The position numbers were made by a program, and so were the translations under genes. Below the pieces are notes generated by a model, which saw nothing but the letters and a program-made list of their open reading frames with translations, did not search any database and was not told the origin of the DNA. Source: Ferruginibacter sp. (GTDB lineage: Bacteria > Bacteroidota > Bacteroidia > Chitinophagales > Chitinophagaceae). Taken from it: a DNA stretch of 10,127 nt. This document shows, piece after piece, positions 338-10,127 of this stretch; the first letter of the stretch is position 1, and each line of letters opens with the position of its first letter. The stretch is taken from contig VERM01000029.1 in the NCBI GenBank assembly GCA_018882645.1, forward strand, positions 1-10,127, given 5' to 3'.

Positions 338-1762
338 TCAATTGATTTCTGCATGTCGCATGGGGATAGATATTGTCAACTCACAACCATTTCCTGGAGT
401 TGATTGAATGTCAAATTCGCCGGAAAATAATTCTGACCTTCTCTTCATATTTGATAGTCCGATGCCTTTTTCCGTAGTGGAAGTATCAAAGCCAACGCCG
501 TTGTCTGAAATGCTTAATATTATATGACCCTTTGCTAATGAGAGACCCACATTAACAAGTGTTGCTTTTGCGTATTTCAAAATATTGTTGAGTTGTTCCT
601 GAATAATCCTGTATAAATTAAGCTGAAGCTCTGTTTTTAAATGTATTTCACTTATGGAGTCATCAAAATTGAACTGGATGGTAAATTGTTTTTTCTGATT
701 GAAATTGCTGAGTAGTTTTGCAATCGCATGTTCTAAAGTTGCCTCATCAAAAAACGCAGGAGCAAGTCTGTGAGAGATTTTTCGGATTTCATTCAGCGCA
801 AGATTGATGTGCTCTTTGGTCTTGTGTAACCATTTATGAGAAGATTCGGGCACATGGTCTGAAAGCAGCTCCAGACTTAATTGACTCGTTGCCAGTATCT
901 GACAAATATTATCGTGTAATTCAGCGCCAATTTCATAACGTTCATCTTCCTGAGCCTTGATGATGGCTTTGGTAATTTTATGCTCGTACAATACTTTTTC
1001 AGTAATGTCAATTGATATGACGAACTGGTATATTTTATCACTGATGGTAATAAGATTGCTGTAGATATCCACATCAATAATTTCCCTGGATTTTTTTATA
1101 TGCTTGTATCTGCCCTTGTACAGATTCACATTTACAGACTCAAGGTTGCTGTCGATTTTCTTTACAGATTCCACATCTACCTTTGGAACAATATCAAATA
1201 AAGTCATTTGCAGAAATTCCTCTTCTGAATATCCATAATTTTTAATAGCAGCCTTGTTTACCTGGTAGAATTTGTAGTTTTCCATGTCAAAGATCCACAT
1301 AGGCTGCGGACTCATCTGGAAGAGATTGCTGTATCTTTTTTCAGACTCTTCCAATAGTTGATTGGATTTTTTTCTTTCAATATTGTAAACTATACTTTTG
1401 TAAAGAGAAGATGCATTTATATCATCCTTTAATAAATAGTCGGATGCCTTGAGTGAGAGCGACCGAATACTGAATTCAATATCAGCGTATCCTGTTAAAA
1501 CGATAACAGGCGCTCCTTTGCTTTTCTCTACGGTATCTCTGATTAAATCTTCCCCTGTTTTGTCAGGCAATGTAAGATCAAGCAGAATGACATCAAACCC
1601 TGAACCCTGAACGGATAGTTTTACATCTGCTTCTGTGAAATTTCGGGCATGTTCAATTGAAGGATTTGAAATTTGCTCTTCAAGATAGTCGCTGATTAAG
1701 GCAAAATCTCCCGGATTGTCTTCTACAATCAGAATATTCAGTGCATTTTTAATCTTATACAT
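338..1762 (-). CDS. REC-PAS-HisKA_3 hybrid sensor histidine kinase
   Basis: A 474-residue cytosolic protein with no membrane segments. Residues about 8-130 form a receiver domain with the acidic pair E14/D15, phospho-acceptor D62, switch residue T90 and K112, all intact. Residues about 140-258 are a PAS domain. Residues about 265-335 are a HisKA_3 dimerisation domain with the motif ELHDN, phospho-acceptor H283. Residues about 375-470 are an HATPase_c domain with N393 (N box), DNGVGF 420-425 and GIGL 433-436. HisKA_3 kinases (NarX, LiaS, DesK types) normally phosphorylate LuxR/NarL-type regulators, and none is encoded here. The receiver in front of a kinase suggests that phosphorylation by the upstream H-NOXA kinase gates this one (inference). 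It is the last gene of the operon, starting 6 bases after the preceding stop, and the ATG has no Shine-Dalgarno. It may equally answer to an unlinked kinase. Confidence 0.92.
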   Translation of the reverse strand: MYKIKNALNILIVEDNPGDFALISDYLEEQISNPSIEHARNFTEADVKLSVQGSGFDVILLDLTLPDKTGEDLIRDTVEKSKGAPVIVLTGYADIEFSIRSLSLKASDYLLKDDINASSLYKSIVYNIERKKSNQLLEESEKRYSNLFQMSPQPMWIFDMENYKFYQVNKAAIKNYGYSEEEFLQMTLFDIVPKVDVESVKKIDSNLESVNVNLYKGRYKHIKKSREIIDVDIYSNLITISDKIYQFVISIDITEKVLYEHKITKAIIKAQEDERYEIGAELHDNICQILATSQLSLELLSDHVPESSHKWLHKTKEHINLALNEIRKISHRLAPAFFDEATLEHAIAKLLSNFNQKKQFTIQFNFDDSISEIHLKTELQLNLYRIIQEQLNNILKYAKATLVNVGLSLAKGHIILSISDNGVGFDTSTTEKGIGLSNMKRRSELFSGEFDIQSTPGNGCELTISIPMRHAEIN

Positions 1763-1768
1763 TTATCG

Positions 1769-2203
1769 CTAACTTTTGTGAGTTGGAATATGGGTCAGGT
1801 TCAACCAATACTCTTCGATTTTCGAAATCAGCTCTACAAAATTAGTGCCGTCAGTTGGTTTAGTAACAAATGAGTTGGCATAATTTTTATAGGATGCTAA
1901 AATGTCTGCAGGCGCAGACGAAGTCGTAAGCATGATTACGGGTATGTGTTTTAATTTATCATTGTTTTTTATGAAATGAAGAACTTCCTGTCCGTTCTTC
2001 TTTGGAAGATTGATATCCAGAAGAATGATGTTTGGTAATTCACCTTCACTTACCTTCAGTGTATTCGTCAGGTAATCTATTGCAAGCTGTCCATCCCTGG
2101 CAATGTTTATCTTCTTCAACAGACTTTCATTGTTCAATGCCTCTGTGATGAGAAGGATATCCCCCTCATTGTCTTCTATAAGCAGCAGCTCTATCGAATT
2201 CAT
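1769..2203 (-). CDS. Stand-alone response regulator, CheY/Rcp1-like
   Basis: A 144-residue single receiver domain with all catalytic residues visible: E10/D11 for Mg2+, phospho-acceptor D63 in LLDINLPKKNG, T93 in MLTT, and K115 in VTKP. The motif LPKKNGQEVL and the C-terminal helix with EEYW are the signature of the Rcp1 group, the partners of phytochrome-type kinases such as cyanobacterial Cph1. There is no DNA-binding or enzyme output domain. It probably receives phosphate from the kinase encoded just upstream and passes the signal on by protein contact or by a phosphorelay. Its start is 2 bases after the kinase stop codon, so translation is probably coupled and the two proteins made together. 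The partner assignment is inferred from order and subfamily; the domain call itself is secure. Confidence 0.95.
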   Translation of the reverse strand: MNSIELLLIEDNEGDILLITEALNNESLLKKINIARDGQLAIDYLTNTLKVSEGELPNIILLDINLPKKNGQEVLHFIKNNDKLKHIPVIMLTTSSAPADILASYKNYANSFVTKPTDGTNFVELISKIEEYWLNLTHIPTHKS

Positions 2204-2205
2204 TT

Positions 2206-4572
2206 TTATTGTTTTTTAATGGTAAAGTGAAAAACACTTCCCTGATTGGGGGTGGATGTTACCCAAATTTTTCCGCCTAAATTTTCAATGATTTTTTTAG
2301 TGATAGCCAGTCCAATCCCCGTACCAGAGTATTCGTCCCGATTATGTAATCTCTGAAAAATGACAAAAATTTTCTCATAGTATTGTTCATCGATGCCAAG
2401 TCCATTGTCTGAAACGGAAAACTGCCAAAAGTCATTCCCCTCTTTTGCTTCAACATGTATTAAAGGCTGAATTCCTTTTCTGTGGTATTTTAAGCCATTG
2501 TTGATCAGATTCTGAAAAACCTGTCTGATAGGAGATTTATATGTTTTCAGAACAGGCAAATTGTCGAATGTAATTATTGCGTTTAATTCATCCATTTGCT
2601 TGCTGTGCAATAAAACGATTTCATTGATGATGATATTCAGATCTACATCTTTTAAGCTTTCTTCGGTTCTGCCTATCCTTGAAAACTCAAGTAAATCCAA
2701 TATGATCTGACGCATACGTTTTGCTCCGTCAACTGCATAGTGAATATATTCTTTTCCTTTTTCATCAATGACTCCACTGTATTTTTTCTCCAGCTGTGAA
2801 AGAAAACTGGTTACCATTCTCAATGGTTCCTGCAAATCGTGCGATGCGATATATGCGAATTGTTCCAGTTCAATATTTACAGCCTTTAAAGCTTCTAATG
2901 CCTCCTGCAATCTTCTTTCTGCTATTTTGGTTTCAGTGATGTCAACACCATATCCAATCATGTATTTCAAGTCTTCTTCTTCAAAATATGGGTAAAAATT
3001 TCGGAGCACATATTTCAATTCGCCGGCTTTTGTTTTGTGTTCATCTATCCAGTCAACAACCCGCTTTTCCTCTATAGCCTGATCATACAAATCTCTTCTT
3101 CTTTTTGCTATGGTATCATCAATGCCAAAATGTTTGGCATAATCAAAGTCGTTTTTTCCGATGAGCCATTGTCTTTTTTCCTTGTCTTTGATTGCATTTG
3201 GATTGAGGAAAAGGTAGTTATGGCTTTTATCAAATACAGCAATATCCGCGGGTATATTGTTCAATATGTCTTCGGTAAATTTTTTCTGCACTTCAATTTC
3301 TCGATTCGCATTAACCATTTCGGTTATGTCTCTCTGGATGGATATCCAGTGGCTTACCCTGCCTCTTTGGTTTGTTACTGGATTTAGTGTGAAGTTGACC
3401 CAAATGGGCTCTTTATTTTTTTTATATGCAATTACCGTGGCTTCTGAACTCTCAAATTTTATGATTTGTGAAATGATTCTCTCAACCGTTTTTGGGTCAG
3501 ATTTGGGTCCACTCAACATGATTGGCGATTGCCCGATCACTTCATCTCTGTTGTAGCCTGTAATTTTGGTAAAGGCTTCATTGACATAAAGTATAGGCAG
3601 ATTTTCTTTGGAAGACATTATGATTACACTATCGTTAGTTTTTTCAACTACGGATTCCAAAAGTTTCAAGTGCTGCTCTTCTTTTTTCTTGATCGTTATG
3701 TCCTGCAGGGCGCCAATCATTTTTACTGCTCTGCCGTTCTCATTTCTTAAGACATAAGAATTGCCAAATACACTGGAATATTTACCATCAGATTTTCTGA
3801 AACGATACTCGCCACTCCATATGTTCATATCCCCTTGAAGGACTTGCTCAACCGAGTTCATGAGCATTTCATAGTCGTCCGGATGCACATTGTTTTGCCA
3901 GAACTCTATGTTGTGTTCTAAATCGTTGAGATCATATCCAAACACTCTTGAGAAACCTTCTCCGTAATATACATTATTATTGATCAGATCCCAATCCCAT
4001 ATTGCCTCTGACGTCGCTTTTGATACCAGCTCATAACGTTGATTGCTGATTTGAAGAGATCTTGAATAATCCTGAATTTGTTGGGCTGATTTTTTTAAGT
4101 CCTCTTTTTGTTTATTTACCTGAATAAGTAGCTCCTTCAATTCGGTGTTTACAATGCTGGAAGACTGAAGCAAATGTAACATGTCTAACAAAGCGTCGTG
4201 AGAAGACAAATCCTTAATGCTTAAGCCCGATTGATGAAGTTCTTCTGTAGATAAAACCCATGGTGAACCGATAAAAATAAAACCATTTTTTTCTTCAATG
4301 TACTCAAGTTGTCCACGCAGGATTATTTTCGGATTTTTCAAGGTTTCCAGGAGTACCAATTCTCCGCAAACTTTAAGTAAAGATTTTTTGTTGAGTAATT
4401 CAACATAGGGTCTTTTAATGATGAAATTTTCGATAAAGCTTGTCGCAGATTTTCCAATGAGTTTTTCAAGAGAATTTCCTTTGCTTTCAATCGTCATTCC
4501 TTCATCAATAAACATGAAGAATGGGTATAGTCTATTGAACTGCTCCTGTTTTAAGGTTAATTGGAATGACAT
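2206..4572 (-). CDS. H-NOXA-PAS-PAS-PAS sensor histidine kinase (H-NOX partner)
   Basis: A 788-residue soluble kinase without transmembrane segments. Residues about 14-135 match the H-NOXA (HNOBA) domain of soluble guanylate cyclase: YPFFMFID near 16, KRPYVE 53-58, LRGQLEYIE 85-93, GSPWVLS 102-108 and SSHDALLDML 123-132. A coiled coil follows (about 137-178), then PAS domains at about 178-293, 305-418 and 432-548. HisKA (about 568-632) carries ASHDLQEPL with phospho-acceptor H578. HATPase_c (about 675-786) has N688/N692, DNGLGI 722-727 and GTGIGL 750-755. The HisKA region closely resembles Cph1-type phytochrome kinases and has Glu at H+4, where Thr/Asn supports phosphatase activity in many HisKA kinases. 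There is no phytochrome GAF/PHY region. The H-NOX gene ends 6 bases upstream and the Rcp1-like receiver starts 2 bases downstream. H-NOX probably docks on H-NOXA and controls autophosphorylation (inference). Confidence 0.93.
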   Translation of the reverse strand: MSFQLTLKQEQFNRLYPFFMFIDEGMTIESKGNSLEKLIGKSATSFIENFIIKRPYVELLNKKSLLKVCGELVLLETLKNPKIILRGQLEYIEEKNGFIFIGSPWVLSTEELHQSGLSIKDLSSHDALLDMLHLLQSSSIVNTELKELLIQVNKQKEDLKKSAQQIQDYSRSLQISNQRYELVSKATSEAIWDWDLINNNVYYGEGFSRVFGYDLNDLEHNIEFWQNNVHPDDYEMLMNSVEQVLQGDMNIWSGEYRFRKSDGKYSSVFGNSYVLRNENGRAVKMIGALQDITIKKKEEQHLKLLESVVEKTNDSVIIMSSKENLPILYVNEAFTKITGYNRDEVIGQSPIMLSGPKSDPKTVERIISQIIKFESSEATVIAYKKNKEPIWVNFTLNPVTNQRGRVSHWISIQRDITEMVNANREIEVQKKFTEDILNNIPADIAVFDKSHNYLFLNPNAIKDKEKRQWLIGKNDFDYAKHFGIDDTIAKRRRDLYDQAIEEKRVVDWIDEHKTKAGELKYVLRNFYPYFEEEDLKYMIGYGVDITETKIAERRLQEALEALKAVNIELEQFAYIASHDLQEPLRMVTSFLSQLEKKYSGVIDEKGKEYIHYAVDGAKRMRQIILDLLEFSRIGRTEESLKDVDLNIIINEIVLLHSKQMDELNAIITFDNLPVLKTYKSPIRQVFQNLINNGLKYHRKGIQPLIHVEAKEGNDFWQFSVSDNGLGIDEQYYEKIFVIFQRLHNRDEYSGTGIGLAITKKIIENLGGKIWVTSTPNQGSVFHFTIKKQ

Positions 4573-4578
4573 TATTTA

Positions 4579-5121
4579 TTACCAGCTTACTTTAAAAATT
4601 TCATGATTGTTGCCTTTGTCCCTGCTTTCAAGCAATGAAATATCTACCGGCGTTTCATACATTTTCCCCAACCCAGTCAAAAGTCCGCGCACAAACTCCT
4701 GTAATCCTTCTCTTTTGGAGTAATAATGAATATGAATGCTATTATCGGTCTTATCACTCACCTTGAACTCAGGTGGTGTGAGTTTTGGATAAATCATCAT
4801 GATATGGTTGTGAAAAACCGGAAGGTTGGATAAAAATTCTTTTAGATTTTTTCCTCCGGTTTGTAATAGCCCGGCATATTTTTCTTTGGTCGTTCTCAAA
4901 ATCCACCATTCGCCCAGTAATTGCAGCACCAGTGAAAGTTCAATATTCATCTCCTCGGCCACAGCCCCGGCAAGTTTATATGTAATATCGTCGTCATAGG
5001 GTTCATTGCTGATGAAAAAATCGACATCAATACCACTTCTTTTTTTTACAGCCTCCCATTTTTCCGATCCGAAATTCTCTTTAATCAAATCTTCAATGGC
5101 TTTATTTACTATTCCGTACAT
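4579..5121 (-). CDS. hnoX: H-NOX haem nitric oxide/oxygen-binding protein
   Basis: A stand-alone 180-residue H-NOX domain, the usual length for bacterial members. It starts with MYGIVNKAIEDL, typical of the family, which fixes the ATG. The proximal haem ligand is H104 in the segment NLPVFH, followed by YPKLTPPEF, whose Pro116/Pro117 match the residue that distorts the haem in the family. The haem-propionate motif Y-x-S-x-R is complete (Y133, S135, R137). The distal position that is Tyr140 in the O2-binding Thermoanaerobacter protein and Ile145 in guanylate cyclase beta1 is F143 here, so the pocket lacks the tyrosine that stabilises O2. The protein is therefore expected to bind NO and to discriminate against O2 (inference). 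It is cytosolic, lacks a signal peptide, and is the first gene of the operon. The following gene encodes the matching H-NOXA kinase. Confidence 0.96.
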   Translation of the reverse strand: MYGIVNKAIEDLIKENFGSEKWEAVKKRSGIDVDFFISNEPYDDDITYKLAGAVAEEMNIELSLVLQLLGEWWILRTTKEKYAGLLQTGGKNLKEFLSNLPVFHNHIMMIYPKLTPPEFKVSDKTDNSIHIHYYSKREGLQEFVRGLLTGLGKMYETPVDISLLESRDKGNNHEIFKVSW

Positions 5122-5138
5122 GGTAATTAAAATTTATA

Positions 5139-5171
5139 CAACAATAAATCCCTATTCAGTAAATATACAAA
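5139..5171 (-). promoter_or_regulatory. Candidate promoter of the H-NOX operon
   Basis: Read on the minus strand, TTTG (plus positions 5168-5171) is followed after 21 bases by TATTGTTG (5139-5146), a 7/8 match to the Bacteroidota -7 element TAnnTTTG. Transcription would begin roughly 10-15 bases before the ATG at 5121, giving a very short AT-rich leader without Shine-Dalgarno. A second, poorer option is TATATTTA at about 5160-5167. This is a match by eye only. Confidence 0.4.
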
Positions 5172-5266
5172 CAAATGGGCTCAAACTTGAATGTTTAATT
5201 AATGCTATGAATTCAGTAATAAAAAAGAAACATTTTGGCAGCATTGTTTTCTTTACGGTTCACAGG

Positions 5267-5297
5267 TTGGTCGTTTAAAAATTTATGATTAACTTAG
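5267..5297 (+). promoter_or_regulatory. Candidate promoter of the thr operon
   Basis: TTG (5267-5269) is followed after 20 bases by TAACTTAG (5290-5297), a 7/8 match to the Bacteroidota -7 element TAnnTTTG. The predicted start at about 5302-5306 would place the leader ORF (ATG 5325) some 20 bases into the transcript, which fits an attenuation-style leader. An alternative, TTTG 5234-5237 with TACGGTTC 5254-5261, has a shorter spacer and a poorer match. Confidence 0.42.
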
Positions 5298-5322
5298 CCA
5301 TCCCAATCAAACTTACAATTGG

Positions 5323-5393
5323 ATATGATACAAACAGGTATGCATACAATTACTTCCACCATTACAACCCGTCAGGGTTGCAGCGTATCATAT
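5323..5393 (+). repeat. Inverted repeat bracketing the thr leader ORF
   Basis: ATATGATAC (5323-5331) and GTATCATAT (5385-5393) are perfect 9-base reverse complements, extendable by one G-U pair (5322/5394). In RNA they would form a stem that closes the whole leader ORF: the upstream arm contains its ATG and the downstream arm contains its last codons. A palindrome GTATGCATAC (5338-5347) repeats the ATAC/GTAT elements inside and could compete for pairing. Whether this folds in vivo is unknown. Confidence 0.5.
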
Positions 5394-5396
5394 TAA
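5325..5396 (+). CDS. thrL: thr operon leader peptide (thrL-like)
   Basis: A 23-codon ORF from ATG 5325 to TAA 5394-5396, too short for ordinary gene finding. The peptide begins MIQTGMHTITSTITT and ends RQGCSVSY. Six of 23 residues are Thr and three are Ile, with five Thr and two Ile in residues 8-15. The E. coli thrL leader has the same TITT-style run, and there ribosome stalling at Thr/Ile codons controls thrABC attenuation. The ORF lies 76 bases upstream of thrA, on the same strand, just downstream of a candidate promoter. An internal ATG at 5340 would give an 18-residue version that keeps the run. The name is by analogy of content and position, not sequence homology. The lack of a clear terminator downstream leaves the mechanism open. 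Confidence 0.72.
   Translation: MIQTGMHTITSTITTRQGCSVSY
5365..5380 (+). promoter_or_regulatory. Hairpin within the thr leader
   Basis: CAACCC (5365-5370) and GGGTTG (5375-5380) form a perfect 6-base stem with a GTCA loop, directly after the Thr/Ile codon run. Its 3' arm (TTG, 5378-5380) can instead pair downstream as part of TTGCAGC (5378-5384) with GCTGtCAA (5409-5416), one bulge, so the two structures are mutually exclusive. That is the layout expected of a pause/anti-structure switch, but no T run follows either stem. Confidence 0.4.
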
Positions 5397-5472
5397 CCAT
5401 GGGCTTCGGCTGTCAAAAGACAAAATTCCTATTTTATTTCACCGGTAATTTAATTTTCTAACTTCTTAGTTT

Positions 5473-7938
5473 ATGCAAGTATTAAAATTTGGAGGTACCT
5501 CTGTAGCCAATGCGGAAAATATCAGAAAGGTTATCTCCATAGTAAATGATGCCAATAAAAAAAGCTCAGCTATTGTAGTAGTGTCAGCTCTGGGAGGGAT
5601 TACTGATTTGCTTCTCGACGCAGGTTCACTCGCTGCCGAAAAAAAATCATCTTATTTTGAAAAGCTCACTACAATAGAGCAGCGTCATATCGACTGTATC
5701 AGACAACTCATTTCTGAAGATAATCAATCTCCTTTACTTGGATTGATCAAAGAAAGTATTGAGGAGTTGAAATCACTTCTCAATAGTTTTTTTGTAATTG
5801 GTGAAATTACCGCCCGCTCCAAAGACCGCATTGCCGGATACGGAGAATGGCTTTCATCGCAAATCATTGCCCAGGCTTGTAAAGAGAGCGGTATAGATGC
5901 ATTATGGAAAGACAGCAGGGAATTGATTGTTACCAATTCTTCATACGGAACTGCTGCTGTTGATTTTTCTGTTACTGATGCACGCATCGCTGAATTTGTT
6001 GCCTCCGGTAATCACCAGTCTTATATACTTCCCGGATTCATAGCATCCGACAAGAATGGCGTGCCAACAACCCTCGGAAGGGGTGGGTCCGACTACACTG
6101 CAGCTATTGTGGCTTCTGCTCTGAATGTGTCTAATCTCGAAATATGGACTGATGTGAGCGGAATGATGACGGCGGATCCGCGTCTCAGCAGCAATGCCAA
6201 AATCATCCCTCACATTTCCTATCAGGAGGCAATGGAGCTGTCTCACTTCGGAGCTAAAGTAATTTATCCTCCCACCATACAGCCTGTTATGAATAAAAAT
6301 ATTCCGGTCTGGATAAAAAATACTTTTGCACCCAATGATTATGGAACAAAAATTTCCAACGGAAAGCAGGAAGGAATTCCAAACGAATCTAAAGATGTTG
6401 AAATGGTAACCGGTATTTCAAGCATCAACAATATTTGTTTGATTACTTTGGAAGGCAATGATATCAATGGTATACCGGGGTTTGCCAAAAGATTGTTTGA
6501 AATTTTCAGCATTGAAAAAATTAAAATTATCCTGATTACACAAAGCTCCTCTGAGCAATCTATTACGCTTGCAATTGAAAGTAGTGCCGCACTGAAAGCA
6601 CGCAACGCCATTGATTATGCTTTTGCCAATGAACTGGCATTGCAACAGCTGGCTCCTCCAAAAATTGAATCCGGCCTGTCTATTATTGCGGCTGTAGGAG
6701 AAAATATGCGCAACCATCCCGGTGTAAGTGGACGTATGTTCAGTGCCATGGGAAGAAACGGTATCAATATCCGGGCCATCGCACAAGGGTCTTCTGAAAA
6801 AAATATCTCCGCGGTGATCAATACCACAGATGTCAGTAAGTCCATCAATGTGCTGCACGAAGAGTTTTTTGAAAAAACATATAAGCAACTTAATGTTTTT
6901 CTTGCCGGAACAGGAAACGTGGGGCAGCGATTGCTCGAACAAATTCATCAGCAGATCGGTTTTCTTCAGGAAAAAATGCGTGTCAACATCAGACTCATAG
7001 GTCTTTGCAACACCCGTAAAATGCTGATAGATGAAAAAGGTATTGATACCGGCAATTGGCAGGAAGCATTGAGCAATGCCCCTTCAGCTGATCTTTCTCT
7101 TTTTGTGGAGGAGATCATCAGACTGAATCTGCGAAATGCAGTTTTTGTAGATGTTACCGCAAGCAATGTAGTGGCAGATGTGTATCACAGATTGCTCCTA
7201 AAGAGTATCTCCGTAGTGGCATGCAACAAACTGGCAGCCGCATCATCCTATCAGAATTACAAAAAACTCAAAGACCTGTCCCGCGAATACAATGCACAGT
7301 TTTTATTTGAAACCAATGTAGGTGCAAGTCTTCCCATCATCGGAACCATCAATGATTTAATGCATAGTGGCGACCGGATTCACAAGATTGAAGCAGTTCT
7401 CAGCGGAACGCTGAATTTCGTTTTCAATAATTACGATGGGAAAAAGAAGTTTGCCGATGTGGTCAAGCAAGCACAGGCGGAAGGTTACACAGAGCCCGAT
7501 CCTCGTCTTGATCTCAGTGGCACCGATGTGATGAGAAAGATTATGATACTGGCAAGAGAGGCCGGACAACAGCTGGAAATGGAGAGTATTATCAATAACT
7601 GTTTTATGCCCGATGCTTGTATGAAAGGAACAGTAGATGACTTTTATGAGGAGATGGCCAAACAGGAAGTCCATTTCAAAGCTTTGTTTGATAAAGCGAA
7701 TGGTAGTGGGCATAAACTGAAATTTGTTGCCACATATAGCCATGGAAAAGCCTCGGTAGGATTGCAGCATATCCATCCGGAAAATGATCTGTATCATTTG
7801 TATGGAAAAGATAATGTCGTGTTGTTCTATACAGATCGATATAAGGATCAGCCACTGGTCATCAAGGGTGCCGGTGCTGGCGCCGACGTTACCGCAAGCG
7901 GTGTTTTTGCCGATATCATTAGAGCATCAAAAGTTTAA
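5473..7938 (+). CDS. thrA: Bifunctional aspartokinase / homoserine dehydrogenase
   Basis: An 821-residue fusion, almost exactly the length of E. coli ThrA (820). It catalyses phosphorylation of aspartate and, later in the pathway, NAD(P)H-dependent reduction of aspartate semialdehyde to homoserine. The kinase half (about 1-295) opens with KFGGTS (5-10) and has the LGRGGSDYTA nucleotide-binding loop (201-210). Two ACT regulatory modules follow (about 310-465), the likely site of feedback inhibition by threonine. The dehydrogenase half starts near 473 with the Rossmann glycine motif G479-T-G-N-V-G484, then ACNK (K586) and GTDVMRK with D685 and K689, which match the catalytic Asp/Lys of yeast homoserine dehydrogenase. 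Both active sites look intact. MQVLKFGGTS fixes the start. It leads thrB by 9 bases in one operon and is probably controlled by the upstream leader. Confidence 0.97.
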   Translation: MQVLKFGGTSVANAENIRKVISIVNDANKKSSAIVVVSALGGITDLLLDAGSLAAEKKSSYFEKLTTIEQRHIDCIRQLISEDNQSPLLGLIKESIEELKSLLNSFFVIGEITARSKDRIAGYGEWLSSQIIAQACKESGIDALWKDSRELIVTNSSYGTAAVDFSVTDARIAEFVASGNHQSYILPGFIASDKNGVPTTLGRGGSDYTAAIVASALNVSNLEIWTDVSGMMTADPRLSSNAKIIPHISYQEAMELSHFGAKVIYPPTIQPVMNKNIPVWIKNTFAPNDYGTKISNGKQEGIPNESKDVEMVTGISSINNICLITLEGNDINGIPGFAKRLFEIFSIEKIKIILITQSSSEQSITLAIESSAALKARNAIDYAFANELALQQLAPPKIESGLSIIAAVGENMRNHPGVSGRMFSAMGRNGINIRAIAQGSSEKNISAVINTTDVSKSINVLHEEFFEKTYKQLNVFLAGTGNVGQRLLEQIHQQIGFLQEKMRVNIRLIGLCNTRKMLIDEKGIDTGNWQEALSNAPSADLSLFVEEIIRLNLRNAVFVDVTASNVVADVYHRLLLKSISVVACNKLAAASSYQNYKKLKDLSREYNAQFLFETNVGASLPIIGTINDLMHSGDRIHKIEAVLSGTLNFVFNNYDGKKKFADVVKQAQAEGYTEPDPRLDLSGTDVMRKIMILAREAGQQLEMESIINNCFMPDACMKGTVDDFYEEMAKQEVHFKALFDKANGSGHKLKFVATYSHGKASVGLQHIHPENDLYHLYGKDNVVLFYTDRYKDQPLVIKGAGAGADVTASGVFADIIRASKV

Positions 7939-7947
7939 ATTCATCAC

Positions 7948-8871
7948 ATGAACTCAATCACAGTAAAATCACCTGCCTCTGTGGCCAATCTCTGTTGCGG
8001 TTTCGATATCATGGGTATCGCACTTAGCGGTTTATATGATGTAATGAAGCTTACTAAAAGAGACGAGCCAGGTATTTCCATTAAACATACAGACCGATAT
8101 AATTTATCGGAGAATCCTTCTGAAAACGTTGCCGGTGTTGCATTGCAAGCGATGATGGATGCTTTGAAATATACCAATGGTTTTGACGTGGTGATAGATA
8201 AGCAGATAAAGCCCGGAAGCGGTATAGGTTCCAGTGCAGCCAGCGCAACGGGTATAGTAGTGGCCGCAAATGAATTGCTGGGAAAACCTTTCGGTAAAAA
8301 AGAACTTGTTTCATTTGCCATGGAAGGGGAGGCGCTTGCAAGCGGTTCACGCCACGCGGATAATCTGGCTCCATGTATTTACGGCGGTCTCACACTAATA
8401 AGGGAAACATCTACATTGGATATCATTGAACTGCCCATTCCGCCAATGTATGTGAATATCATTCACCCTCAAATAGAAATCAAAACTTCATATGCCCGTC
8501 AGATTCTTCCAAAGGAAGTGCCATTGAAAAGTGCCATTACCCAATGGGCCAATGTGGCCGGATTAATCGCCGGTTTTATTAAATCGGATTACGGCTTAAT
8601 CAGCAGATCTTTGAATGATGTAATTGTTGAACCCGTGAGAAGTAAATTGATTCCCGGCTTTGATCAGGTAAAGAAAAAGTCTATCGAAGCCGGCGCACTG
8701 GGGGGAGGTATCGCAGGAAGTGGTCCTTCTTTGTTTATGTTCAGTGAGAATATTTCCATCGCTCAAGCAGTAGAAGAAGAAATGAAAACAGTATATCAGG
8801 ATCTGGGAATTGAGTATAAAACATACATTACCACTATTGGAGAAGGTATAATTGTTGAATCTTTAAGTTAA
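7948..8871 (+). CDS. thrB: Homoserine kinase
   Basis: A 307-residue GHMP-family kinase that phosphorylates homoserine with ATP to O-phosphohomoserine, the substrate of threonine synthase. The N-terminus has the family pattern VKSPASVANLCCGFD (6-20). The ATP-binding glycine/serine loop PGSGIGSSAAS runs from P89 to S99. A second motif, EGEALASGSRHADN, spans residues 126-139, and the C-terminal glycine-rich GGGIAGSGPS spans 252-261. Length and motif order are normal for bacterial ThrB and nothing appears broken. The ATG lies 9 bases after the thrA stop without a Shine-Dalgarno-like motif, so it is surely cotranscribed with thrA. The enzyme is cytosolic. An overlapping antisense ORF at its 5' end is a shadow. 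Confidence 0.96.
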   Translation: MNSITVKSPASVANLCCGFDIMGIALSGLYDVMKLTKRDEPGISIKHTDRYNLSENPSENVAGVALQAMMDALKYTNGFDVVIDKQIKPGSGIGSSAASATGIVVAANELLGKPFGKKELVSFAMEGEALASGSRHADNLAPCIYGGLTLIRETSTLDIIELPIPPMYVNIIHPQIEIKTSYARQILPKEVPLKSAITQWANVAGLIAGFIKSDYGLISRSLNDVIVEPVRSKLIPGFDQVKKKSIEAGALGGGIAGSGPSLFMFSENISIAQAVEEEMKTVYQDLGIEYKTYITTIGEGIIVESLS

Positions 8872-8910: not shown

Positions 8911-10127
8911 ATGAAATATTTCAGTCTCAATAACAGATCTTCTTTTGTCGATTTTAAAGAAGCGACCATAAGAGGTCAGGCTCCCGACAAGGGGCTGTAT
9001 TTTCCTGAGTACATACCAATGCTCGATAGAAAACTAATAAATGAAATTGAAAGTTTGTCTAACGAAGAAATTGCATTCAATGTGATTAAACCATTCGTAG
9101 GTGATGTTATCTCGCAGGAAGATTTATTTGATATTGTAATGCAAACGGTCAATTTTCCTGTTCCTCTGGTAAAGCTAAATGAGAATATTTTTTCTCTTGA
9201 AATGTATCATGGAAATACACTTGCTTTTAAAGACATCGGAGCCAGATTTATGAGCAGATGTCTCGCTCATTTTGTGAAAGACAATGATAAGAAAATTACG
9301 GTGCTGGTGGCCACTTCTGGCGATACCGGCGGTGCAGTGGCTGACGGATTTTGCAATGTTGATGGCGTGGATGTGGAAATATTGTATACTTCGGGCAAGG
9401 TGAGTAAAGTACAGGAAAAGCAACTGACATCACTGGGGAAGAATATTCATGCACTTGAAGTGAAAGGAACATTTGACGATTGTCAGCAAATGGTGAAGAA
9501 GGCTTTTGAAGATCATGAATTGAATCAAAAATTATTTCTGACTTCAGCCAACTCCATAAATGTGGCCAGATGGTTGCCTCAACAGTTTTTTTATTTTTTT
9601 GCATACAAGCAATGGCCTGATAAATCAAAACCTCCAGTAGTGTGTGTGCCAAGTGGTAATTTCGGAAATATCTGTTCGGCTTTATTGGCGCATATTTCTG
9701 GTTTGCCGGTTAAACATTTTATTGCTGCGTGCAATGCCAATGATGTTGTTCCTGATTTCATGAGAACTTTCAAATATAAGCCCAAAAAAGCAGTAGCGAC
9801 TATATCCAATGCAATGGATGTGGGTGACCCCAGTAATTTTATACGTATTTTGGAACTGTTCGAAAGCAAAACAAATGAGCTGTCCTCGCTGCTTTCTGCC
9901 TACAGTATTTCTGATGAAGAAACCACAGCAACAATACAATCGGTTGATAAAGAAAACAATTACCTGCTCGATCCTCACGGTGCAGTTGGATATCTTTCTC
10001 TAAAAAGATATTTAGACCAGCACACAAATGAAAAAGGCTTTTTTGCCGAAACAGCTCATCCTGTGAAGTTCTATGATGTGGTGGAGCCCATCATAAACAG
10101 GAAAATTGAGTTACCCCAGGCTATAGC
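8911..10127 (+). CDS. thrC: Threonine synthase (3' end beyond the window)
   Basis: The reading frame is open from ATG 8911 to the right edge (405 full codons), so the gene is cut by the window and not broken. The product is a PLP enzyme that converts O-phosphohomoserine to threonine plus phosphate. The start MKYFSLNN is characteristic of ThrC. The PLP lysine is K107 in LAFKDIGAR, the same number as in E. coli ThrC. ATSGDTGGA (134-142) and the phosphate/cofactor loop PSGNFGN (247-253) are present, as is the GKVSKVQEKQL segment (162-172). Family members of this fold are about 430-440 residues, so only some 25-35 residues and the stop should be missing. It follows thrB by 39 bases, the widest gap in the operon, with no terminator evident, so it most likely shares the transcript. 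Confidence 0.95.
   Translation, partial: MKYFSLNNRSSFVDFKEATIRGQAPDKGLYFPEYIPMLDRKLINEIESLSNEEIAFNVIKPFVGDVISQEDLFDIVMQTVNFPVPLVKLNENIFSLEMYHGNTLAFKDIGARFMSRCLAHFVKDNDKKITVLVATSGDTGGAVADGFCNVDGVDVEILYTSGKVSKVQEKQLTSLGKNIHALEVKGTFDDCQQMVKKAFEDHELNQKLFLTSANSINVARWLPQQFFYFFAYKQWPDKSKPPVVCVPSGNFGNICSALLAHISGLPVKHFIAACNANDVVPDFMRTFKYKPKKAVATISNAMDVGDPSNFIRILELFESKTNELSSLLSAYSISDEETTATIQSVDKENNYLLDPHGAVGYLSLKRYLDQHTNEKGFFAETAHPVKFYDVVEPIINRKIELPQAI

Follow-up and report, generated by a model that had tools for sequence, protein, structure and literature searches.

A short, unannotated open reading frame (ORF) rich in threonine and isoleucine codons precedes thrABC in a genome of the Bacteroidota, which raises the question of whether it encodes a leader peptide that senses threonine and, if so, how it switches the operon. 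Leader-peptide attenuation is textbook knowledge for Proteobacteria; in E. coli, thrL encodes a Thr/Ile-rich leader peptide and is the intrinsic-terminator attenuator of the thr operon. A passage in PMC2965389 holds that, as of 2010, leader peptides had been left unshown outside Proteobacteria and Actinobacteria. Strong clues for leader-peptide attenuation of amino-acid operons in Flavobacterium psychrophilum are described in part of PMC9723704, and B. thetaiotaomicron has long 5' UTRs that contain short ORFs (part of PMC7366714). In the open-licence literature, general hints alone of such attenuation in Bacteroidota were found, and no paper on a thr leader in this phylum; a 2010 comparative attenuation study by Lopatovskaya and others, cited in a passage of PMC4833913, may already list Bacteroidota thr leaders.

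The window, meaning the whole stretch of 10,127 nucleotides analyzed here, is from Ferruginibacter sp. (contig VERM01000029.1); the host assembly comprises 2.13 Mb in 479 contigs and is 89.5% complete. The leader and operon features are as follows.

5266-5297, plus strand: candidate promoter of the Bacteroidota -33/-7 type, GTTG (5266-5269), 20 nt, TAACTTAG (5290-5297), read from the sequence
5325-5396, plus strand: leader peptide ORF, MIQTGMHTITSTITTRQGCSVSY and stop codon, from translation and from conservation and codon periodicity in relatives
5346-5369, plus strand: Thr/Ile codon run TITSTITT, residues 8-15, presumed sensing codons, from translation and aligned relatives
5473-7938, plus strand: thrA, bifunctional aspartate kinase/homoserine dehydrogenase I (NF006959)
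7948-8871, plus strand: thrB, homoserine kinase (NF002288)
8911-10125, plus strand: thrC, threonine synthase, running off the window (Thr_synth_N and PALP)

Translation of 5325-5396 agrees with the initial annotation, which had described a 23-codon ORF with six Thr and three Ile codons and TITSTITT at residues 8-15. The 76-base gap to thrA on the same strand was likewise recovered (last base of the ORF stop codon at 5396, first base of thrA at 5473), as was a promoter candidate before the ORF. Bacteroidota promoters follow the consensus TTTG-N19-21-TAnnTTTG, which the candidate resembles, and its end lies 27 nt before the leader ATG. The start is ambiguous in that TTG at 5319 and ATG at 5340 share the ORF frame. 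When the 200 nt before thrA were shuffled 5000 times preserving dinucleotides, an ORF with at least five Thr in 12 residues arose in 0.46% of shuffles. An overlapping ORF (MINLAIP...) was considered as an alternative and shows no Thr/Ile run, and a sigma-70-like site on the minus strand (5416-5387) was within chance (2 found versus 2.1 expected). A search of NCBIfam with the 23-residue peptide gave no match, as expected for so short a query.

Divergent from the thr operon, on the minus strand at 338-5121, is an apparent nitric-oxide sensing cluster, which we note as a side observation.

4579-5121, minus strand: H-NOX (haem-NO-binding) protein
2206-4572, minus strand: PAS histidine kinase with a haem-NO-binding-associated domain
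1769-2203, minus strand: short ORF reading like a response regulator, by reading of the sequence
338-1762, minus strand: response-regulator/histidine-kinase hybrid

To compare relatives, two collections of thrA loci were compiled. The first yielded a thrA match in 58 of 59 genomes, from which 30 loci were taken; the second comprised 80 loci, the best 80 of at least 574 confirmed matches. Among these best 80 of at least 574, the nearest named thrA is that of a Chitinophagaceae MAG (L032; 92% identity), and among the matches listed, named thrA at 60-70% identity came from Chitinophagaceae and related taxa (Terrimonas, Niastella, Segetibacter, Sediminibacterium, and Ferruginibacter). Exact duplicates, L001, L027-L031, and upstream sequences shorter than 330 bases were removed, which gave 95 distinct regions of 300 bases each. 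Seven regions with no visible element were set aside by hand (L009, L010, L072, L074, L089, L098, and L104), and these, together with L007, L005, L047, and L111, were subtracted to give a set of 84 loci.

An ORF of 12-60 codons with at least five Thr in 12 residues was identified in 68 of the 95 regions, compared with 0.84% of 1900 shuffles; at a threshold of four Thr, the corresponding values were 85 of 95 and 6.2% of 1900 shuffles. The reverse strand of the same regions gave 0/95 and 2/95, respectively; the 95 regions are related by descent and hence not independent. The check that the initial annotation had proposed, a search for a short Thr/Ile ORF upstream of thrA in relatives, thus returned such an ORF in most regions, and its view of a Thr/Ile-rich leader of the thr operon holds beyond this genome. 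Since the leader is conserved, the objection that it had foreseen, a lack of conservation in relatives, does not apply.

With 83 loci anchored on their final Thr/Ile codon, the ten codons up to that point were 57.5% Thr and 21% Ile, percentages that are somewhat favoured because the anchoring selects Thr frames. Third-base freedom is unaffected by that selection, and entropy over the three codon positions followed a low-middle-high pattern (e.g., 0.45, 1.05, and 1.72 bits at position -5). This rise in variation from first to third base suggests translated ANN codons with a free third base. The leader ends in TTR, TTL, or TIR before its stop in nearly all loci. A TAnnTT-like element followed by an in-frame leader start was identified in 76 of 84 relatives (ATG in 40 and GTG in 36). 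In three same-genus relatives (L005, L007, and L033), the hairpin AACCCGCCAGGGTT is kept and the Thr run has decayed, an apparent loss of the sensor. Judged on such sequence evidence, 5325-5396 is very likely a leader peptide gene of thrABC that senses threonine; isoleucyl-tRNA is perhaps sensed too. That the ORF is a functionless chance occurrence is highly improbable, since conservation, covariation, and codon periodicity contradict it, for all that short ORFs are common and that the window form has lost both the stop codon in the hairpin loop and the first of two boxes described below.

Around and beyond the Thr run lie four RNA features.

5324-5346, plus strand: H0, TATGATAC (5324-5331) able to pair with GTATGCATA (5338-5346) in a stem that includes the start codon; a weak, local structure of -7.3 kcal/mol
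5365-5380, plus strand: H1, hairpin CAACCC-GTCA-GGGTTG where the Thr run ends, from covariation and an R1 match (below)
5389-5395, plus strand: box 2, CATATTA (consensus CATATYA), 8 nt after H1, conserved in relatives
5402-5411, plus strand: H2, weak hairpin GGC-UUCG-GCU within a conserved GGGC..GCTG segment, with weak covariation (t = -2.07)

An H1-type hairpin was detected in 87 of 88 scanned loci, the one without being L007. In relatives it spans the final Thr codons, the stop codon, and the nucleotides that follow (e.g., ACAACCC-GTTAA-GGGTTGT, AATCCGC-TAA-GCGGATT, and ACTCCGC-TCTA-GCGGAGT). An alignment (A1) was built from 68 of 74 located loci; L048, L050, L070, L081, L097, and L106 were excluded, being either short or near-duplicates. 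RNAalifold yielded no consensus fold for these 68 rows because MAFFT misplaces the short hairpin in several of them; the named H1 structure was then counted directly and its arms were tested against foreign partners. Its six pairs form in 91.9% of cells over the 68 rows, compared with at most 56.5% when slid by 1-3 columns, and four of the six pairs have changed on both sides (18 cells versus 4.7 in shuffles). In 94% of 84 loci, the two arms fit each other better than they fit arms taken from other loci (t = -11.8). The window RNA taken alone is not unusually stable (z -1.12).

The distance from H1 to the CATATYA box is 5-10 nt, and 7-8 nt in 47 of the 74 loci (of 84) in which it was located, the other ten being reversed in their files; GGGC and GCTG come after box 2 in relatives. 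In the window, the codon in the H1 loop is CAG instead of a stop, and the frame continues to the TAA (5394-5396) that overlaps box 2 in this lineage. A loop stop is also absent in L032, L006, L035, L013, L047, and L101. The hairpin-box distance is kept in the measured loci that have no loop stop, which suggests that the hairpin, rather than the stop codon, sets the spacing. The sequence of box 2 is conserved although no pairing partner could be detected, and the box recurs in other Bacteroidota families (viewed across families in an alignment, A3, used solely for this). A second, same-sense CATATCAY box (box 1) lies inside the leader at about codons 5-10, where it encodes HIISS or HITSS (L004, L036, L070, L109, and others); it was observed in 38 of 84 loci, compared with 13.1 expected, and is absent from the window.

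The leader start is itself paired. Its partner in most relatives is the Thr run, the window form being a short local stem. In 68% of 76 loci, the 26 bases around the start fit the Thr run of the same locus better than runs from other loci (t = -4.49), with exchanged stems such as AAGTGGTAC/CTACCACTA, AATGGTAC/GTACCATT, AATAGTGG/CCACTATT, and AGGTGAT/ATCACCT. Across the relatives' loci, covariation between the leader start and the region after H1 was not found (t = -0.60). A ten-pair stem that joins the leader start to box 2 in the window's minimum-energy fold (5322-5331/5385-5394) therefore has no general support; L032 alone was seen to share it, with nine letters kept on each side.

One part of the initial annotation, the equation with the E. 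coli thrL device, was not supported in that form. A Thr/Ile-rich leader of the thr operon is common to both; an intrinsic terminator was found neither in the window nor in the 84 relatives, and in its place are the conserved hairpin ending the Thr run, the CATATYA box, and the start-codon/Thr-run pairing. In none of the 84 loci did a terminator in the interval from H1 to thrA reach -6 kcal/mol (best -5.0), and terminator-like hairpins at or below -3 kcal/mol occurred in five of 84 loci versus 2.4% of 420 shuffles. A separate scan of the window (5130-5500) returned no terminator-like site. As for a mutually exclusive antiterminator pairing, among helices between the tested segments none that joins an H1 arm to sequence further downstream gained support. 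Searches of Rfam, including Thr_leader and Bacteroid-trp, gave no gathering-level match in the window, and six weak matches at E up to 10 in 5200-5520 were all unrelated.

As a control, the same terminator scan was applied to the hisG, ilvD, and trpE loci of relatives. Twenty peptides matched the patterns. One of them, the ilv case L227, was taken to run antisense to ilvD and excluded, since L222 has the same sequence pattern on the antisense strand within ilvD; this left 19. Leaders were identified in 7/10 his, 5/12 ilv, and 7/9 trp loci, and none was found in 3/10, 7/12 (L227 counted), and 2/9, respectively, the ilv and trp loci of the window's genome being among these. These His-, Ile/Val-, and Trp-rich leaders (his L211 and L213-L218; ilv L220-L223 and L226; trp L233-L239) include MLLNAIHHHHHAFAQARG, the his leader of the window's own genome (L216), as well as MKGNILNGITNIAAIIIVVVVIIIPISGGGIYM and MINTNNNNWWWGMVK. 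Downstream of all 19, which come from 12 related genomes, lies a terminator with a strength of -7.7 to -26 kcal/mol. Seven of the 12 genomes also have a terminator-less analyzed thr locus (G000, G002, G006, G007, G008, G013, and G016), or nine with G010 and G015. The detection of terminators at his, ilv, and trp in the same genomes indicates that neither a poor scan nor the genomes themselves explain their absence at thr. An intrinsic terminator most probably plays no part at the thr leader, and gene switching probably takes another route.

Composition offers a candidate for that route. The 80 bases before H1 contain 25.5% C and 11.5% G, and C exceeds G there in 84 of 84 loci, compared with 9/74 for the first 400 bases of thrA and 27/84 for the stretch 221-300 bases before thrA, upstream of the promoter. 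From H1 to thrA, C exceeds G in 81 of 84 loci. Within the run, the Thr codon ACG accounts for 29 of 477 (15.4% in thrA) and the Ile codon ATA for 3 of 174 (21.2% in thrA). The C-rich, G-poor leader resembles a Rho-loading region and lends mild support to Rho, which is encoded in the window's genome. The bias is not specific to Rho because it is partly due to the Thr codons and is also present in two of three terminator-type thr leaders measured. Rho is a possible terminator at the thr leader, with the balance tilting slightly against it.

As far as sequence comparison goes, the relatives show a translated leader, a covarying H1, a box about 7-8 nt further on, pairing of start and Thr run, and no recognisable terminator. 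A fairly likely account of the whole is a thr leader-peptide attenuator of a terminator-less type. In such an attenuator, charged threonyl-tRNA would be sensed through the speed of the ribosome over the Thr/Ile run, and H1 with the CATATYA box would cause RNA polymerase to pause. With ample threonine, the ribosome would pass the Thr codons, open H1, and leave at the stop codon; Rho would bind the exposed C-rich, G-poor leader RNA and transcription would end before thrA. With threonine scarce, the ribosome would stall on the Thr run and cover the Rho-binding region, such that thrABC is transcribed. The direction of this switch (on upon stalling, off with ample threonine) is taken from the leader itself and from established attenuation. 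Pairing of the start codon with the Thr run would act as a lock that limits each transcript to one or a few reading ribosomes, which is probably its role.

Whether H1 and the box form a polymerase pause signal is, by analogy, an even question. Pause sites have been reported in E. coli thrL, and the hairpins of E. coli leader pauses have strengths of -2.2 to -7.8 kcal/mol, with a 10-nt spacer used in the analysis (in the part of PMC9291695 available). The strength of H1 and its distance to the box are comparable, which fits a hairpin-stabilised pause.

Three other readings were weighed. In one, the leader governs translation or stability of the thrA mRNA, with the ribosome's position on the Thr run altering how the segment from box 2 to the thrA start folds, or shielding the 5' end, and leaves transcription alone. 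The lack of a visible terminator would suit this, as would the conserved box 2 and GGGC..GCTG between leader and thrA, and translational leader control is known in Bacteroides from tetQ (a reference listed in PMC12121999, which in the part available treats Rho and a uORF). However, the leader, H1, and box show no covarying pairing with the stretch that leads to thrA (A x C, t = -0.65; H3 x C, t = -0.18; B x C, t = 1.20; H x C, t = -1.66), and we regard this reading as improbable. To a similar degree improbable is that box 1 and box 2 bind a Bacteroidota-specific factor that performs termination or antitermination, with the ribosome acting through it. Conservation of the unpaired box 2, its recurrence in other families, and the excess of box 1 point in that direction, but no such factor was identified, more than half of the loci, the window among them, lack box 1, and its in-frame position (HIIS/HITS) means that box 1 may reflect the peptide.

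Less probable again is ordinary intrinsic attenuation with H1 as a weak terminator or attenuator arm and the terminator missed by the scan. A T-rich stretch does follow H1, and H1 itself scores as a weak terminator (at or below -6 kcal/mol) in eight of 84 loci; it fails the scan in the other 76, however, and falls far short of the related his, ilv, and trp terminators. The logic would also be reversed, since with plentiful threonine H1 would be opened by a ribosome that has reached the run's end.

Returning to the terminator-less attenuator, its distribution was assessed with a model, R1, of H1, box, and GGGC..GCTG, built from an alignment (A2) of 35 of the 68 rows of A1, hand-picked for diversity. 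R1 matches the window at 5365-5413 (E 1.9e-11), a match that is partly by construction because the window segment is among the 35 rows. Matches were detected in 23 of 59 relatives at E 2.5e-4 or better, weaker ones up to E 0.5 looking like chance, and in 163 of 294 same-family genomes (E 0.01) representing 66 of 101 genera, with 131 genomes having no match. Eight weak second matches were observed, none before a recognisable amino-acid gene and seven in or overlapping long ORFs. A pattern search for further copies in the window's own genome gave one match, the window itself.

At the phylum level, thrA relatives were identified in 86 of 118 genomes. Among 29 upstream regions inspected by eye, 12 had leader, hairpin, and CATAT box; two had the hairpin with a degenerate box; four combined a leader with a strong terminator (-17 to -23 kcal/mol), clear in L201, L205, and L206 and with a Thr-poor leader in L207; three had a Thr-rich leader ending in Gly and no terminator by the scan; and eight had no leader. 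L201, L205, and L206 are terminator-type thr leaders (e.g., MTSNNTIITTITTTGVKHGGR) from another family of the same class. Of 59 further regions taken, mostly from distant families, 57 had a located start and one (L279) had a Thr-rich leader, with a terminator, which argues that the leader is not phylum-wide. As for the choice between deep conservation and convergence put forward in the initial annotation, within the phylum the thr leader occurs in several families and in two architectures, both of which are found in the window's own family (L207 versus the rest), and was not seen in most of the more distant families scanned. A broader claim, tentative and on balance unlikely, is that Bacteroidota have a second, terminator-less class of amino-acid attenuator for threonine, in which the Thr run would be the Rho-loading region, the start would be locked for a single reading, and H1 with CATATYA would provide the pause, beside terminator-type his, ilv, and trp leaders in the same genomes.

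The thr leader peptide is real and conserved, ordinary in principle and unusual in build. One family has classic attenuators for histidine, branched-chain amino acids, and tryptophan together with a differently built, conserved threonine leader. If Rho is the terminator, the locus would offer a simple, compact system for work on Rho, on pausing, and on the coupling of ribosome and polymerase in a phylum where little is known of the transcription machinery. As a candidate for a pause signal the CATATYA box is a concrete one, and R1 would allow the unannotated leader gene to be added to several hundred genomes.

Among known systems, the leader is very likely akin to the E. coli threonine gauge. 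As in thrL, a Thr/Ile-rich peptide lies directly before thrABC, the speed of the ribosome is the presumed signal, and hairpin-linked pausing is plausible; unlike thrL, no terminator was detected, and a CATATYA box, a leader ending at the hairpin, and start/Thr-run pairing are present. The terminator-type his, ilv, and trp leaders of Bacteroidota share the phylum and a peptide rich in the regulated amino acid, but have strong terminator hairpins and T tracts that the thr leader does not. Bacteroid-trp RNA is linked to trp leader peptides. It is RF01692, as listed in a portion of PMC2864571. Leader peptides of actinobacterial cys operons, which have no obvious terminators, were explained by Rho, an explanation called weak by its authors (in a passage of PMC1262725). 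Those leaders resemble the present one in a codon run near the stop codon, a terminator that was not found, and the proposal of Rho; they differ in phylum, in amino acid, and in that no conserved terminator-like hairpin or Rho motifs were reported for them, whereas H1 and box 2 are conserved here. TnaC stalls at its own stop codon with free tryptophan and regulates a catabolic operon. In tnaC of the E. coli tna operon, cited as Rho-dependent in a passage of PMC1262725, as in the thr leader proposed here, shielding of Rho's binding region by the ribosome would be the switch; in contrast to the free tryptophan and stop-codon stall of tnaC, the presumed signal at the thr leader is charged-tRNA starvation.
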